Below are positions 6,767 through 19,755 of a DNA stretch of 42,666 nt, piece by piece. Under the pieces are notes generated by a model that saw only the letters and a program-made list of their open reading frames with translations, was not told the origin of the DNA and made no database searches. Source of the stretch: Bdellovibrionales bacterium GWB1_55_8 (GTDB taxonomy: Bacteria; Bdellovibrionota; UBA1018). The stretch lies in NCBI GenBank assembly GCA_001769835.1, contig MEPR01000077.1, positions 1-42,666 on the forward strand, written 5' to 3'. The translations under genes were made by a program, and so were the position numbers. The first letter of the stretch is position 1; every line of letters starts with the position of its first letter.

Positions 6767-7351
6767 GTGACGATTCGTCTTTTCGTCGCCGTGCCGATCG
6801 ATGAAGAAACACGTTCTTGCGTCAACGCGCGGGTGCGAGGGTTTCAGGAGCTTCTCCCAGAGCACGCCGAGCGCCAGCTATCCTGGACTCGCTCTGAAAA
6901 CTACCACCTGACGATTCAGTTCCTGGGAGCCACCGAGCCGGAGAGGATTCCGGACATTCTTGCTGCAATGAAATCAGCCTGCACGAGTATTACCCCATTT
7001 CAGATTCGTTTGGGCGGTCTTGGGGTTTTTCCTTCGAGCGATCATGTTCGGGTTGTATGGATCGGACTTTCAAAAGGGGAGCGTCCGATGGAGCAGCTGG
7101 CTTCAATTCTGGGAAGGGAGCTGGATCAGGCGGGATTTGTCCCTGAGGAGCGAAAATTCTTTCCTCACCTGACGATCGCAAGAACCCGTCCTCGCTCGAG
7201 AACCGTCCGACTCACCGAAGAGATATCGCAGCAGAATGCGTTGCAGGAGGAATTCAGCGACGACACCAACGTAAGCGAGCTCGTGCTTTACGAGAGCATC
7301 TCGGGTTGTTACCTCGAACGAGCGCGCTTTCCGCTGATCGGGGCGACTTAA
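6767..7351 (+). CDS. thpR: RNA 2',3'-cyclic phosphodiesterase (2H phosphoesterase)
   Basis: 194 residues from a GTG with AGGGG upstream. The two catalytic HxT motifs of the 2H superfamily are present: YHLTIQFLG (His47) and FFPHLTIAR (His134), with normal spacing for ThpR/LigT. The family opens RNA 2',3'-cyclic phosphates to 2'-phosphates and can ligate tRNA half molecules in vitro; the in vivo role is usually unclear. It starts 9 bases after the barrel gene. Its TAA stop shares four bases (TTAA, 7348-7351) with the stop of the convergent ferredoxin gene. Confidence 0.93.
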   Translation: MTIRLFVAVPIDEETRSCVNARVRGFQELLPEHAERQLSWTRSENYHLTIQFLGATEPERIPDILAAMKSACTSITPFQIRLGGLGVFPSSDHVRVVWIGLSKGERPMEQLASILGRELDQAGFVPEERKFFPHLTIARTRPRSRTVRLTEEISQQNALQEEFSDDTNVSELVLYESISGCYLERARFPLIGAT

Positions 7352-7578
7352 CCGTCGTTTCCGATCGCTTCGACCGGGCAGGCCTCAAGCGCGGATTTGC
7401 ATTGGGCTTCCTGTTTTCCATCAGCCGGCTGCTTGGTGACGTAGGAATAGCCGTTATCATCGTTTCTGGTGAAATTGTCGGGCGCTTCAGCGCGACAGGC
7501 ATCACAATCGATGCACTGGTCATCCACGTAGTATCGTCCTGAAGCGTTATCCGGCCATCTCTTGCTCTTGTCTGCCAT
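7348..7578 (-). CDS. Small single-cluster ferredoxin
   Basis: 76 residues. The ligand pattern is C22-x2-C25-x2-C28 and C67-P, the arrangement of single [4Fe-4S] ferredoxins; an additional Cys60 could allow a second disulfide or an alternative ligand. The protein is acidic and soluble, and acts as a one-electron carrier in the cytoplasm. No clear partner enzyme lies next to it. No strong Shine-Dalgarno is visible before the ATG. It ends on the same TTAA that ends thpR on the other strand. Confidence 0.9.
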   Translation of the reverse strand: MADKSKRWPDNASGRYYVDDQCIDCDACRAEAPDNFTRNDDNGYSYVTKQPADGKQEAQCKSALEACPVEAIGNDG

Positions 7579-7628
7579 GGTCAGGTTTTTCGTGGATTAG
7601 GGACCTAAAGTCAATTTTATTTCACTTA

Positions 7629-8816
7629 TCACCGGACGCCCAGATGTCGGTCCAGTTCGATGAAGACGTCTTCGGGGGCGAGGCGTTTGGCCTTGGGTCC
7701 AAATAGCAGGGGCAAGGACTGAATCCATGCGGACCTCGCCCGAACCACGTCTTTGTCGGTCGTGCGGAACTGGTTGGGTGAAGCCGTCCGCAGCAAAGTC
7801 CTTGTTGAATTCACGGGCTGAGCCTGAGTTTTCCAGCTCTTGATCAAGGGTAGCCAGTTTCCGGCAGCCGCCCACTTCGGGCCGACTTCATCGGAGAACA
7901 GGTGGGTCAGGAAATTCCGAATATCCGGCGTATCCCGGGTGACCAGAATATCGCTTCCCCCGTTGAGCAGTGCGGGCTTGTTCTCGATGGTGAAAAGCGT
8001 CCCGGCCAGCACCGGAAAACTCACCTTGCGGGTGATCTCGCTCAGGGAATCCAATGAAGTGGCTAGAAAAAGAGATTTCTGATCGATGAAGGACTGCATT
8101 GCACTTTCGGAGGTTTCTTCAGTCCTGATGAGGCCGTCGTCGAGCAACCCCCTGAGCTTTTGTATGGCCGCTGTCAGGCGCCGTTCTGAGCGAATGCCGC
8201 CCTGCTCGCGAGTCCAAAGGGGGCCACCGGCGATGGCCTCGAACATCCAGAGCCCCTGGGCGCCCTGGAGAGGCAGGGCGAGCGGGGCCTCTTTCCGGGA
8301 TTGTTCTGATCGGGAATTTCTGAAATTTCGACTTAAATTCTCGAGCTCGGGCCAGCTGCGGGGAGTTTTCTGTGGAGCCAGCAGTGCCGCATTGGCAAGA
8401 AGCACGGGAACCGTACGCAAAAACGGGAGGGAGGGCAGGCCTCCTGGCGAGGAACCCGGGCTCAAGTCCTTGCGGACCGAATTTGCGAGGCGCATCGGCT
8501 TGGCAATGTCCAAATGAGCAATGGCGGGCCCCTCGGAAGCTTCGATGAGCGCGATTTCGGGGATGTCGCCGGCGAGGAACATGGCGATCAGCTCTCTTAA
8601 CGAGGAGTACTGGTCTCCTCTGCGGATCAGCTGGACACGGCCATCGGGATGCAGGCGATTGTAGCGTTCGATGATTGCCGTGAATTCGGTTTGGGCGGAT
8701 CCGGGCAGGGCCGAAAGAGGCAGGAGGAAGCGGACACCCGGTTTTTCGCCCGCCCAGCCGGGCAAACTGGCCAGCAAGGCGCAAAAAAGAAGCGTAAATC
8801 GCGTGAACGGAATCAT
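7629..8816 (-). CDS. Orphan extracellular solute-binding protein (ABC type)
   Basis: 395 residues from the ATG at 8816, which directly precedes a signal peptide (LLFCALLASLPGWAG). Upstream in-frame starts would overlap the divergent phosphoesterase gene. The mature part follows the sugar-type family 1 binding-protein layout: an N-terminal strand (VRFLLPLSALPG), a helix with EFTAIIERYNRLHPDGRVQL, a hinge segment MFLAGDIPEIALIE, and later PRSWPELENLSRNFRNS and a LNGGSDILVTRDT region. It would capture a solute, perhaps a sugar or glycerol phosphate, in the periplasm. No permease or ATPase gene adjoins it, so it either serves a distant transporter or has a sensory role. The Shine-Dalgarno (GGAG) is unusually close to the ATG. 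Confidence 0.8.
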   Translation of the reverse strand: MIPFTRFTLLFCALLASLPGWAGEKPGVRFLLPLSALPGSAQTEFTAIIERYNRLHPDGRVQLIRRGDQYSSLRELIAMFLAGDIPEIALIEASEGPAIAHLDIAKPMRLANSVRKDLSPGSSPGGLPSLPFLRTVPVLLANAALLAPQKTPRSWPELENLSRNFRNSRSEQSRKEAPLALPLQGAQGLWMFEAIAGGPLWTREQGGIRSERRLTAAIQKLRGLLDDGLIRTEETSESAMQSFIDQKSLFLATSLDSLSEITRKVSFPVLAGTLFTIENKPALLNGGSDILVTRDTPDIRNFLTHLFSDEVGPKWAAAGNWLPLIKSWKTQAQPVNSTRTLLRTASPNQFRTTDKDVVRARSAWIQSLPLLFGPKAKRLAPEDVFIELDRHLGVR

Positions 8817-16244: not shown

Positions 16245-17606
16245 GTGAGACTGCGCACACCTGTCTTTGTAACTATCGGATTTGCTCTTTTCCTGGGTTT
16301 TGCCACGGCCCAGGGAAGCCCTGCAAGCACCCAAGCGCGGAAGTTCGCTTTCATTTTCGGCGCTGGCGGTGAACCCCCTGGAGCGAAGACCATTTTTGAT
16401 GTGTCGTTTGATCAAATGGGGAAGGTTCTGACACAGGCTGGTTACGCTGGGCGACTGGCTTATAACGGGGGCCATGCGGACGCGGAAGGCTTGAGCGAAA
16501 AGCATTTTCCGGGACAACGAACGGAAGTCATGCGCGACGAGATCGAGAAGGCGATCCGTGATTTTGAGAAAGATATAGAAGAGGGCAGGATCAAAGCTGG
16601 TGACCAGCTGCTCATCGTGAACCTGAATCACGGTTTTCTGCCGGAAAAAAAGACCAAGAGTCACCCCGTCGCAAGCCGAGGCGGTGATTTCAATATGGAT
16701 GGTCTCGAGTCGCTTCGCCTGAAAGCGGAAAAGGCCGGGGTGAAACTCGCGATTCTCGACCAGTCCTGCTATGGCGGCGCGTCCCTCGCGCTTGCGAGCC
16801 CGAAAACCTGCGTGATCAGCGCCACCGGCGCGGATAATGTCGGGTATACGACCGAGATATATGAGTTGTGGAAGCGCGCTGCTCCGGGCAAGAGCCTGGA
16901 GTCAGTTTTTCTCGAGGCTCGCAAGTACGGCTATATGCCCACGAGTCCCAGGATTTCGGGTGAAGCCGGGACGAGAGTCGAGGAGCTTCTGAAAACAATT
17001 CAAAAACATCTTCTAAATTATTCGACGGACATTGAGCAAAAGCTCAGGAAATCCCAAGATTGCCCCACTTGTTTCACAGCGGAGAAAGCAGGCGTCGGAA
17101 CGGAATTGCAGCTGAACCTGGCCGAAATAGCGGCTCTTGCAGCTATTCCAAAGGCGACACTCGACGAGATAAAAAAGCGCATACAGGAACATGCAAGGAT
17201 TTTTCAGGCACTGGAAGCGGATTGGAAACTCGAGCGCGAATTCGCGAAGAAAATGATCAAGATCGGTCCCACGACGTGGTCCTGGGCAACGCTTTCCAGA
17301 TTTGACCTGGCCGCGGAAAAGAAACATTGGTCCGAGCTGGTGGCATCAGCGAAGGCTCCTTTCCCGAAAACCTATTACCAGCACGTGCTCGCCTCGCTGG
17401 ATCAGGTGCAAGCCAAACGTGACCAACTCCCGCAGGACAAGGATTTCGCAAGTTTCCTGAGTCTCCGTTCGAAAGTCGATGCGCATTCAAAGGACCTGGC
17501 TCAGGCGGCGGCTGAAGTCGGAAAACTGGAGCGCGCCCTATACGATGTCCTGTATCAGGCGGTCCGAGGAAAGGGGGCAAACCCGTGCGCCGGCTTTGTG
17601 CTCTGA
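16245..17606 (+). CDS. Exported caspase-like (clan CD) cysteine peptidase with helical tail
   Basis: 453 residues from a GTG with AGGA upstream. A signal peptide (VFVTIGFALFLGFATAQG) is followed by a caspase-like fold: strand KFAFIFGAGG (about 33), strand LLIVNLNHGF with candidate catalytic His129, and strand LAILDQSCYGGAS with candidate catalytic Cys175. The pattern hhh-HG then hhhD-x2-C-x-G is that of clan CD (caspase/C13/C14) peptidases. Residues about 245-453 are helical, partly coiled-coil-like, with a CPTC pair near 282 and a late Cys. It is predicted to act outside the cytoplasm. It overlaps the next gene by 22 bases and heads a three-gene exported cassette. The substrate is unknown, and a pseudo-enzyme cannot be excluded. 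Confidence 0.75.
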   Translation: MRLRTPVFVTIGFALFLGFATAQGSPASTQARKFAFIFGAGGEPPGAKTIFDVSFDQMGKVLTQAGYAGRLAYNGGHADAEGLSEKHFPGQRTEVMRDEIEKAIRDFEKDIEEGRIKAGDQLLIVNLNHGFLPEKKTKSHPVASRGGDFNMDGLESLRLKAEKAGVKLAILDQSCYGGASLALASPKTCVISATGADNVGYTTEIYELWKRAAPGKSLESVFLEARKYGYMPTSPRISGEAGTRVEELLKTIQKHLLNYSTDIEQKLRKSQDCPTCFTAEKAGVGTELQLNLAEIAALAAIPKATLDEIKKRIQEHARIFQALEADWKLEREFAKKMIKIGPTTWSWATLSRFDLAAEKKHWSELVASAKAPFPKTYYQHVLASLDQVQAKRDQLPQDKDFASFLSLRSKVDAHSKDLAQAAAEVGKLERALYDVLYQAVRGKGANPCAGFVL

Positions 17607-18016
17607 TTCTCATCCTTTTGAGTTTGTTCGGATCGACGGGGGCACAGGCATCTGTGTTTTCCGAGTGCGGTTATTACCGGATCTTCGGCACGGTGGAATC
17701 GGAAGGGGCGCGTCCGGTGCTGGTTGTGTTTCAGGGTTCGATGAGCGAGACGCGGCTTCGGATCGAGCCGGATTCCAGCAGTCCTGATGCGCTGGACGCC
17801 TTTAGAAACCTTTCAGGGCACCTTGGACGCCGTGTATCCCTGCGGGGAAGAATTCATTCACCCGTTTCCGGGCGTAAGGGAGCAGTCGAACTGCAATCGA
17901 TCATCCCCACCCTTCCGATCGGGCTGTTTCAGGGGTCGCCCAGTGATGAATATCAGTTGAACGAGAAGGTTCGCTGCCAGACTTCCGAACGGGGTATCGC
18001 AAGCGGTACACCATGA
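17585..18016 (+). CDS. Small exported protein of unknown function
   Basis: 143 residues from a GTG preceded by AAAGGGGG. The signal peptide (LCALILILLSLFGSTGAQA) is clear. The mature part is about 120 residues, probably a beta-barrel or OB-like fold (YYRIFGTVESEG, RVSLRGRIHSP) with two Cys (near residues 28 and 131) that could pair. I do not recognise the family. It overlaps the peptidase gene by 22 bases and shares ATGA with the kinase-like gene that follows, which argues for coupled expression of all three. Confidence 0.68.
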   Translation: MRRLCALILILLSLFGSTGAQASVFSECGYYRIFGTVESEGARPVLVVFQGSMSETRLRIEPDSSSPDALDAFRNLSGHLGRRVSLRGRIHSPVSGRKGAVELQSIIPTLPIGLFQGSPSDEYQLNEKVRCQTSERGIASGTP

Positions 18017-18942
18017 TTTGGCGCCATCTCGGCATTCTCAGTACCATCGGGTTAGTTCTTCTTACGACCGCAACACATGCCGCGAGTTACACCCTTTTCG
18101 CCTACGACGGGTTCTTGTACGACCAGGTCGCTGATTACGACCAGATCGTGAAGCGGCTGGTGCCTGGTGACGAACTGGTCTTCAGCAATGGGGACGTCCA
18201 GCGCATTGGACAGCTGGTGGGAACCGGGAACACGACGCTTATTTTTGAACTCGCGAATGACTCCGAAAAGCTCATACGCATTCCGAAAGGGCGTGACTGG
18301 GCGGAATTCACCGAAACGCGTTACATGGAGTACATGTCTTCTTACCAGATTGGGGCAGAGGCCCTGCGGGATCAAGGCGTGCCCATCGTGAAAATTCACG
18401 ATCAATTGGCCGGTGAATTCACCATTGTGGAGCGAATTCCGGGCGAAATGAGTCTGAGGGATTTTCTGAATCGACCCCCCGGAGCCGAGGGTGCGCAGGA
18501 AATGCAAGACGCTCTCGTTGAGTTCGCGCGAAAGACGGCCGGGTTTCAAGAGATCGGTGATTTTCACCCCGGACAGCTCTTTTATCATACCGGGCGCAAA
18601 GAATGGGTTCTCGTGGACTGGAGTAGTGCTCACCTGCCGTTAGTTCCAACCAGCGAGGATATGCTGAGCCGAAGTCGAAGTCTTTTCGTGGGTCGGCCGG
18701 AGTATCGTGCTGATTTCTTTTTTCAATTCCTGAAGAGTGCAGAGGCGGAGCCAGGAAACGTGATTTTCACGCCTGTTCGAGAAGAGTATTCATGGATCGC
18801 GAACCTGGCCAATCGCATTCACCGGGCTGTTACGGACGAGCGTAAATCAATGATTATGAAAAGAGCGACAACGCCGAATCTGACAGACGACGGTTCGCGC
18901 CGGCGAGGCTGTATCTTTTCGATTCTTCCGGGAACAATCTGA
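18013..18942 (+). CDS. Exported protein-kinase-fold (APH-like) protein
   Basis: 309 residues. The signal peptide (ILSTIGLVLLTTATHA) directs it out of the cytoplasm. The rest has kinase-fold landmarks of the aminoglycoside-phosphotransferase type: a nucleotide-loop-like IGQLVGTGNTTLIFEL (about 65-80), a beta-3 strand LIRIPKG with Arg89 or Lys92 in the Lys position, the catalytic-loop-like GDFHPGQLFY (Asp183) and LVDWSSAH (Asp202) in the DFG/DxD position. An exported kinase fold is unusual because ATP is scarce in the periplasm. It could use another nucleotide or be a binding or AMPylating relative. It shares ATGA with the preceding gene's stop. The last 30 residues are basic. Confidence 0.65.
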   Translation: MIWRHLGILSTIGLVLLTTATHAASYTLFAYDGFLYDQVADYDQIVKRLVPGDELVFSNGDVQRIGQLVGTGNTTLIFELANDSEKLIRIPKGRDWAEFTETRYMEYMSSYQIGAEALRDQGVPIVKIHDQLAGEFTIVERIPGEMSLRDFLNRPPGAEGAQEMQDALVEFARKTAGFQEIGDFHPGQLFYHTGRKEWVLVDWSSAHLPLVPTSEDMLSRSRSLFVGRPEYRADFFFQFLKSAEAEPGNVIFTPVREEYSWIANLANRIHRAVTDERKSMIMKRATTPNLTDDGSRRRGCIFSILPGTI

Positions 18943-19140
18943 TGACTGATCGAAATATTGGGGGATGGATCCAAATTGCGTCCCCTAAACGCACCGTGCG
19001 ATGCGTTGAAGTGGGCTGAATTCGAGCACTTTTACGCTAAAGGTCTGGAATCGCAGGTGCTCTCCATTTTGTTAAACTGGCGTATCCCTTGCTGTTGCGT
19101 CTTTTCGATTTTTAACAAATTCGAAATAGGGGAACATCGC

Positions 19141-19755
19141 ATGAAATTTAGGACACTGTTGGTTTGTCTTCTTACGTTTTCTTTCTGTATTCCCGGTTTT
19201 GCGGCCACTTTCGAAAAACAGCTTTCCGAGAAAATCGAAAAGAAAGAGCTCGTGCTGTTTCAGCGCGAGGCGATTCGTGAAGCGAAATTGCGGACACTAT
19301 CGATTCAACTGGAACGTGCCGGTCTCGTCAAAATGGGCCTCTTCGGAGCCAAGGTCCGCGAAGACCGCGAATCCTGCTTTGAGGCCTGCGCCGATTCCTG
19401 CCGAGGCGGTTCCGGGTCGATGGCATGCTGGAACAAGTGCACGAGCGAGGGATATGGAAGTTCCACTTGTGTGTCGCGTTGCGGTGTAGATACCTCGGCC
19501 GGAAGCAGCGCTTGTTGGTCCAAGTGCACTCAGGAGGGGTACGGCAGTGGTACCTGCTCTGAACGTTGTGGAATCGGTAGCGAAGGTGGCAGTGAGGCAT
19601 GTTGGGATAAATGCACCACCGAGGGCTACGGAAGCAGCACGTGTTCAGGTCGCTGTGGCATCACGACTCCAGGAGGAAGTCGCGCTTGCTGGGATAAGTG
19701 CACGACCGAAGGTTATAGCAGCTCAACCTGTGCAGGTCGTTGTGGAACGGAATGA
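19141..19755 (+). CDS. Exported cysteine-rich repeat protein
   Basis: 204 residues from the ATG at 19141, with AGGGG about 8 bases upstream and a signal peptide (LLVCLLTFSFCIPGFA) directly after; longer in-frame starts lack both. A charged helix (about 24-70, rich in Lys, Glu and Leu) precedes four copies of a 29-residue unit, CWxKCTxEGYGSxTCxxRCG plus a Gly/Ser-rich spacer, starting at residue 96; a partial Cys-rich unit lies at 79-95. Each unit has four Cys, so two disulfides per repeat are likely in the oxidising periplasm. I do not know the family. No terminator is seen between it and the kinase-fold gene 199 bases upstream. Confidence 0.78.
   Translation: MKFRTLLVCLLTFSFCIPGFAATFEKQLSEKIEKKELVLFQREAIREAKLRTLSIQLERAGLVKMGLFGAKVREDRESCFEACADSCRGGSGSMACWNKCTSEGYGSSTCVSRCGVDTSAGSSACWSKCTQEGYGSGTCSERCGIGSEGGSEACWDKCTTEGYGSSTCSGRCGITTPGGSRACWDKCTTEGYSSSTCAGRCGTE
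19426..19752 (+). repeat. In-frame 87-bp tandem repeats encoding Cys-rich units
   Basis: Three full units begin at 19426, 19513 and 19600, and a shortened fourth begins at 19687, with an exact 87-base period. Protein identity between units is high (CW, KCT, EGY, TC, RCG are invariant), while third codon positions vary. This implies amplification followed by purifying selection rather than recent slippage. Confidence 0.9.

Follow-up and report, generated by a model that had tools for sequence, protein, structure and literature searches.

Background

In Tannerella forsythia, the genes encoding the potempins directly precede the genes of the co-expressed KLIKK proteases that they inhibit (PMC7296668). 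The C10 proteases of Bacteroides are accompanied by genes for staphostatin-like inhibitors, some of which are exported; these genes are located upstream or downstream of the protease gene and are co-transcribed with it (PMC3462683). Moreover, Bdellovibrio bacteriovorus is shielded from the protein Bd3459 by Bd3460, which is encoded beside it (PMC4686830). In this study, we describe a gene pair from the phylum including the predatory Bdellovibrio, specifying an exported-looking cysteine peptidase of predicted clan CD fold, designated CASP, and a small exported-looking protein with a predicted OB-fold, designated SMALL. No study of the CASP family was found in the literature on caspase-like, clan CD or C13 peptidases of Bdellovibrio, and the pair is apparently undescribed in the literature searched.

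Genetic organization of the locus

The window analyzed here is the whole stretch of 42,666 nucleotides that represents a single contig of the 3.78-Mb assembly (96 contigs) of Bdellovibrionales bacterium GWB1_55_8. It contains three consecutive open reading frames on the forward strand, namely the CASP gene (positions 16,245 to 17,606; 453 amino acids, GTG start), the SMALL gene (17,585 to 18,016; 143 amino acids, GTG start) and a third gene designated KIN (18,013 to 18,942; 309 amino acids, ATG start), the product of which resembles APH-type kinases. In agreement with the first-pass annotation of this DNA, the 3' end of CASP and the 5' end of SMALL overlap by 22 bases (17,585 to 17,606, according to the ORF coordinates), and SMALL and KIN share the four bases ATGA. 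The signal-peptide-like starts noted there were likewise recognized by eye: each N-terminus starts with a few basic residues, continues with a hydrophobic core and has an AxA-like site, which reads ATAQG in CASP, AQA/SV in SMALL and THA/AS in KIN, suggesting that all three proteins are exported.

The locus is preceded by sdhA- and sdhB-like genes and followed by a gene (18,958 to 19,755, forward strand) encoding an exported protein that is rich in Cys and carries tandem repeats, each about 30 residues long (CWDKCTTEGYGSSTCSGRCG type), and whose match to the Pfam model Ole_e_6 (5.2e-6) is slightly under the cut-off. Comparison of the window proteins CASP, SMALL and KIN with Pfam and NCBIfam yielded nothing over the cut-off, and sequence searches of the PDB with the same three proteins gave no credible relative, the top-ranked matches being attributable to chance.

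Conservation of the CASP-SMALL gene pair

Profile searches with CASP, SMALL and KIN were performed over 369 genomes of the phylum. A SMALL gene was present within 800 bases and on the same strand for 80 of 85 strong CASP matches, and 79 of 83 strong SMALL matches had a CASP gene within 300 bases. The five strong CASP matches lacking SMALL comprise the divergent full-length proteins L053 and L054 as well as short-contig or partial matches. CASP is the first gene in 28 pairs and SMALL in 18, the latter number excluding row L122, a duplicate of L096. The two reading frames overlap in 26 of 47 rows, i.e. in about half of the pairs; the 22-base overlap of the window is found at four further loci (L046, L048, L049 and L138), with the limitation that start codons were set by a simple rule and single overlap lengths are thus approximate. 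In a set of 28 wider loci, which are mutually non-duplicate but phylogenetically unbalanced, CASP was detected by BLAST in 28 and SMALL in 26, and every other neighbour family in at most seven.

The sequence distances of CASP and SMALL were correlated over 46 pairs with an r value of 0.69, the best of 2000 permutations reaching 0.18. For 15 pairs of one genus, a set that includes several paralogues per genome diverged to 28-69% identity, the r value was 0.83 and the best of 5000 permutations yielded 0.52. Linkage and co-divergence in either gene order are expected of a dedicated pair. These data show that the pairing exceeds chance and that the conserved unit consists of the two genes CASP and SMALL; the pair is real and widespread in the phylum. 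An alignment scan with four sequences detected CASP at four loci in named relatives, belonging to Bdellovibrionales GWA1_52_35, an Oligoflexia MAG, a Bacteriovoracaceae MAG and a MAG labelled as Deltaproteobacteria. On the strength of these relatives, the phylum of the genomes searched is presumed to be Bdellovibrionota. At the contig end of locus L065 (positions 1 to 2038), a truncated copy of CASP is followed in series by a SMALL gene and a complete CASP gene.

The first-pass annotation had placed all three genes in a single unit, of which the CASP-SMALL linkage is conserved, whereas KIN adjoins the pair only here. KIN homologues occur in 54 of the 369 genomes, and among the 66 matches compared the window locus is the only one near a strong CASP or SMALL match, the other 65 having none within 20 kb. 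One fragmentary KIN match and a weak SMALL match are separated by about 15 kb, and the KIN loci that were inspected have unrelated neighbours. With 65 matches located away from the pair, synteny of the trio in relatives, the lack of which had been set beforehand as a refutation, is not conserved. A cassette that joins proteolysis and phosphotransfer would fit the ATGA overlap of SMALL and KIN and the exported appearance of all three proteins; it is nevertheless very improbable in view of the location of the other KIN matches and of a second CASP-SMALL pair in the same genome (L046 on contig C52) that is devoid of an adjoining KIN gene. The trio was accordingly rejected as a unit, as KIN adjoins the pair at one locus only among the 369 genomes, and KIN is a separate exported-looking kinase-fold protein that is a chance neighbour of the pair in this genome. 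A second KIN homologue of the same genome (L058, positions 6930 to 7856; G000:C65:28941-29849) likewise has no CASP or SMALL neighbours.

The APH landmarks reported for KIN were retained in part. The protein resembles the APH/protein-kinase-like fold in its G-rich loop (GTGNTT), R89, the D183-Q188 segment and D202; Asp183 is invariant and Asp202 nearly so among 11 homologues, and hhalign places both in register with true APH proteins from this genome (E 0.0013, probability 18.5%). It differs from this fold family in its predicted export, in a conserved Gln (Q188) at the position of the catalytic-loop Asn, which leaves the Asp/Asn/Asp set incomplete, and in a score of 12.9 bits against the Pfam APH model, the cut-off being 23.2; two of the 11 homologues reach an E-value of 0.1. 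Because the catalytic-loop Asn is replaced and the profile match is far under the cut-off, kinase chemistry of KIN appears doubtful. Given the lack of conservation of the trio, the combination of proteolysis and phosphotransfer in one exported unit is reduced to a local juxtaposition in this genome.

The CASP peptidase

The deduced CASP protein can be divided into a signal-peptide-like N-terminus (about residues 1-24), a catalytic domain (about 32-245) with the motifs FD52, GGH77, H129-G130, H140, D172-x-S-C175-x-x-G and C189, a helical C-terminal domain (about 245-440) and the tail NPCAGFVL with an invariant Cys448 (17,580 to 17,603, forward strand). His129 is located within NLNHGF and Cys175 within LDQSCYGG. 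The alignment of 46 paired CASP proteins revealed invariant residues at His77, His129, His140, Asp172, Cys175, Cys189, Leu218, Glu219, Pro235, Ile237, Ser238 and Cys448, thereby substantiating the clan CD His129/Cys175 pair of the first-pass annotation; H129-G130 and D172-Q-S-C175 are invariant or nearly so. Most CASP copies, even distant ones, terminate in or near C-x-x-[FIY]-x-[FL], and the terminal NPCxxFx[FL] is retained even among very distant homologues.

An AlphaFold2 model built from five sequences (mean pLDDT 77, pTM 0.71) showed a caspase-like domain, to which long helices are attached C-terminally. Its best PDB matches were legumain (2.9e-4), caspase-4 (4.5e-4) and MALT1 (8.2e-4), with caspase-11 also among the best, so that the caspase fold expected by the earlier reader was recovered with an intact catalytic pair. 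The His-Gly motif and the downstream Cys following a hydrophobic strand are intact, and the model has the caspase-haemoglobinase fold; by predicted fold and intact catalytic residues, CASP is classified as a clan CD cysteine peptidase. At the level of family profiles, the window protein matches neither the Pfam C13 (PF01650) nor the C14 model, and its genome contains no C13 match at the cut-off either. Two of 11 aligned CASP homologues are matched by the C13 model (best 1.1e-7), and one CASP homologue, L054, passes the C13 cut-off.

In a distant homologue of CASP (L086, positions 1459 to 2709), both the catalytic His and the catalytic Cys are replaced, and this protein is a probable pseudo-enzyme. 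This loss would be in line with CASP being a catalytically dead clan CD fold that serves as a binding scaffold, a reading that is most unlikely for the family, as 98-100% of the 46 pairs retain His129, Asp172, Cys175 and Gly178.

The SMALL protein

A model of SMALL calculated from four sequences (mean pLDDT 73, pTM 0.63; core blocks with pLDDT 76-90) is rich in beta-strands, as had been proposed at first sight. According to DSSP, the order of elements is strand 1 (residues 29-40), strand 2 (43-50), strand 3 (54-62), a helix (67-79), strand 4 (83-90) and strand 5 (98-108), which corresponds to an OB topology. OB-folds dominate the PDB matches of the model, mostly tRNA synthetases and RPA/Stn1-type domains, and none of the matches passes an E-value of 0.001. 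Among them are structures of potempin A with either karilysin or MMP-12 bound (PDB 8b2q and 8b2n), at a Foldseek probability of 0.99-1.00, with TM-scores of 0.34-0.35 normalized to the query and 0.48-0.50 normalized to the target; by the latter score (about 0.5), potempin A is the best among the SMALL matches listed. A profile of eight SMALL proteins searched against the PDB at E-values up to 10 detected no potempin chain. As potempin was not found by sequence, the two proteins are not regarded as one family, and the structural match indicates a shared fold in the predicted model.

Conserved residues of SMALL include Cys28, Tyr31, Gly35, Ser54-Glu55 and Cys131. Cys28 and Cys131, retained in 96-98% of the 46 pairs, may form a disulphide, which would fit an exported protein. 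Inspection of the window SMALL protein by eye revealed no canonical lipobox. The conserved Ser54-Glu55 at the beginning of beta-strand 3, along with the one-to-one linkage of the genes, could point to SMALL being a dedicated substrate or signal carrier that is cut by CASP in the envelope instead of a regulator. This alternative is considered improbable, since SMALL offers no nameable cleavage site and its predicted fold is compact and possibly closed by Cys28-Cys131.

Proposed role of the gene pair

The interpretation that we favour, at a probability of roughly 0.5, is that CASP and SMALL constitute a dedicated module of an exported peptidase and an exported OB-fold partner, the latter most likely acting as a self-protecting inhibitor. 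This view of SMALL is derived from the known enzyme/inhibitor pairs, i.e. KLIKK/potempin, C10/staphostatin-like and Bd3459/Bd3460. We infer binding, inhibition, export and target of the pair as follows. Both proteins would be co-produced by means of overlapping or adjoining reading frames and would act in the periplasm or beyond the cell, where SMALL would bind CASP and hold the peptidase inactive until its target is reached. The producer would thereby be spared from its own protease, and CASP might be used either for digesting the proteins of other cells or for protein turnover in the producer's envelope.

The predicted fold itself weighs against inhibition to some extent, as OB-folds are generic, and the linkage of the two genes would also suit a chaperone, an activating subunit or a substrate. 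The main rival explanation is that SMALL is a positive partner, either a folding chaperone or an activating or substrate-docking subunit needed for CASP activity, since linkage alone does not separate such a function from that of an inhibitor. A subunit would account just as well for the near-strict one-to-one pairing and the co-divergence, and the CASP model lacks an obvious separate propeptide ahead of the catalytic domain, which suggests that regulation comes from elsewhere, e.g. from the helical C-terminal domain or from SMALL. On the other hand, the full-length CASP proteins L053, L054 and L097 have retained the catalytic Cys in the absence of SMALL. CASP is thus apparently able to persist alone. 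The few CASP genes lacking SMALL also weigh against the favoured reading, as the partner is not always required. Where small neighbours of secreted bacterial cysteine proteases are known, they act as inhibitors (PMC3462683), and a positive role of SMALL is on balance rather unlikely. The three proteins lacking SMALL are also devoid of the GGH motif at His77, which the 46 paired CASPs retain; a link between both losses is unproven, since distant SMALL-paired homologues are likewise devoid of GGH.

Should SMALL inhibit CASP, it would to our knowledge be the first inhibitor of a clan CD peptidase to have an OB-fold. The adjacent-gene inhibitors would then represent natural, genetically paired reagents for caspase/legumain-like enzymes, and a phylum known to invade other bacteria would possess a second type of self-protection pair. 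As many paralogous CASP-SMALL pairs occur per genome, the specificity of enzyme and partner is directly testable. Only tentatively, we extend this view to a class of exported caspase-like proteases that would be phylum-wide and hitherto undescribed; every member would be accompanied by an OB-fold inhibitor co-diverging with it, and together they might form a self-protected protease arsenal of predatory and related bacteria. The first reading of the locus is thereby corrected from a three-gene to a two-gene unit.

Comparison with known systems

The predicted fold of CASP and its His-Gly and Asp-x-Ser-Cys-x-x-Gly motifs resemble those of the C13 (legumain) and C14 (caspase) families, whereas the long helical C-terminal domain, the conserved CxxFxF-type end and the lack of a match to either Pfam model set the protein apart. 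The KLIKK proteases, being metallo or serine enzymes, differ from CASP with its predicted assignment to clan CD. The general arrangement is similar, as a secreted protease is encoded beside a small exported protein, and potempin A, whose OB-fold is matched by the SMALL model, belongs to a group of specific inhibitors of the respective protease (PMC7296668). However, potempins are lipoproteins whose genes precede that of the protease, whereas SMALL has no lipobox recognizable by eye and both gene orders occur; there is no detectable sequence similarity between them, and SMALL is a putative inhibitor.

The C10/staphostatin-like, staphopain/staphostatin and SpeB/Spi systems share with the CASP-SMALL pair the combination of a cysteine protease with a small adjacent gene, which encodes an inhibitor in those systems. 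They consist of papain-like proteases and staphostatins with a lipocalin-like barrel, in contrast to the caspase/legumain-like clan CD peptidase and the predicted OB-like partner described here, which places SMALL outside the staphostatins. The Bd3459/Bd3460 pair originates from the same phylum and likewise comprises an exported hydrolase, encoded by the first gene, and an adjacent exported partner, which is inhibitory in the case of Bd3460 (PMC4686830). Its components are a DD-endopeptidase and an ankyrin-repeat protein, whereas the CASP-SMALL pair combines a putative protein-cutting peptidase with a predicted OB-fold.
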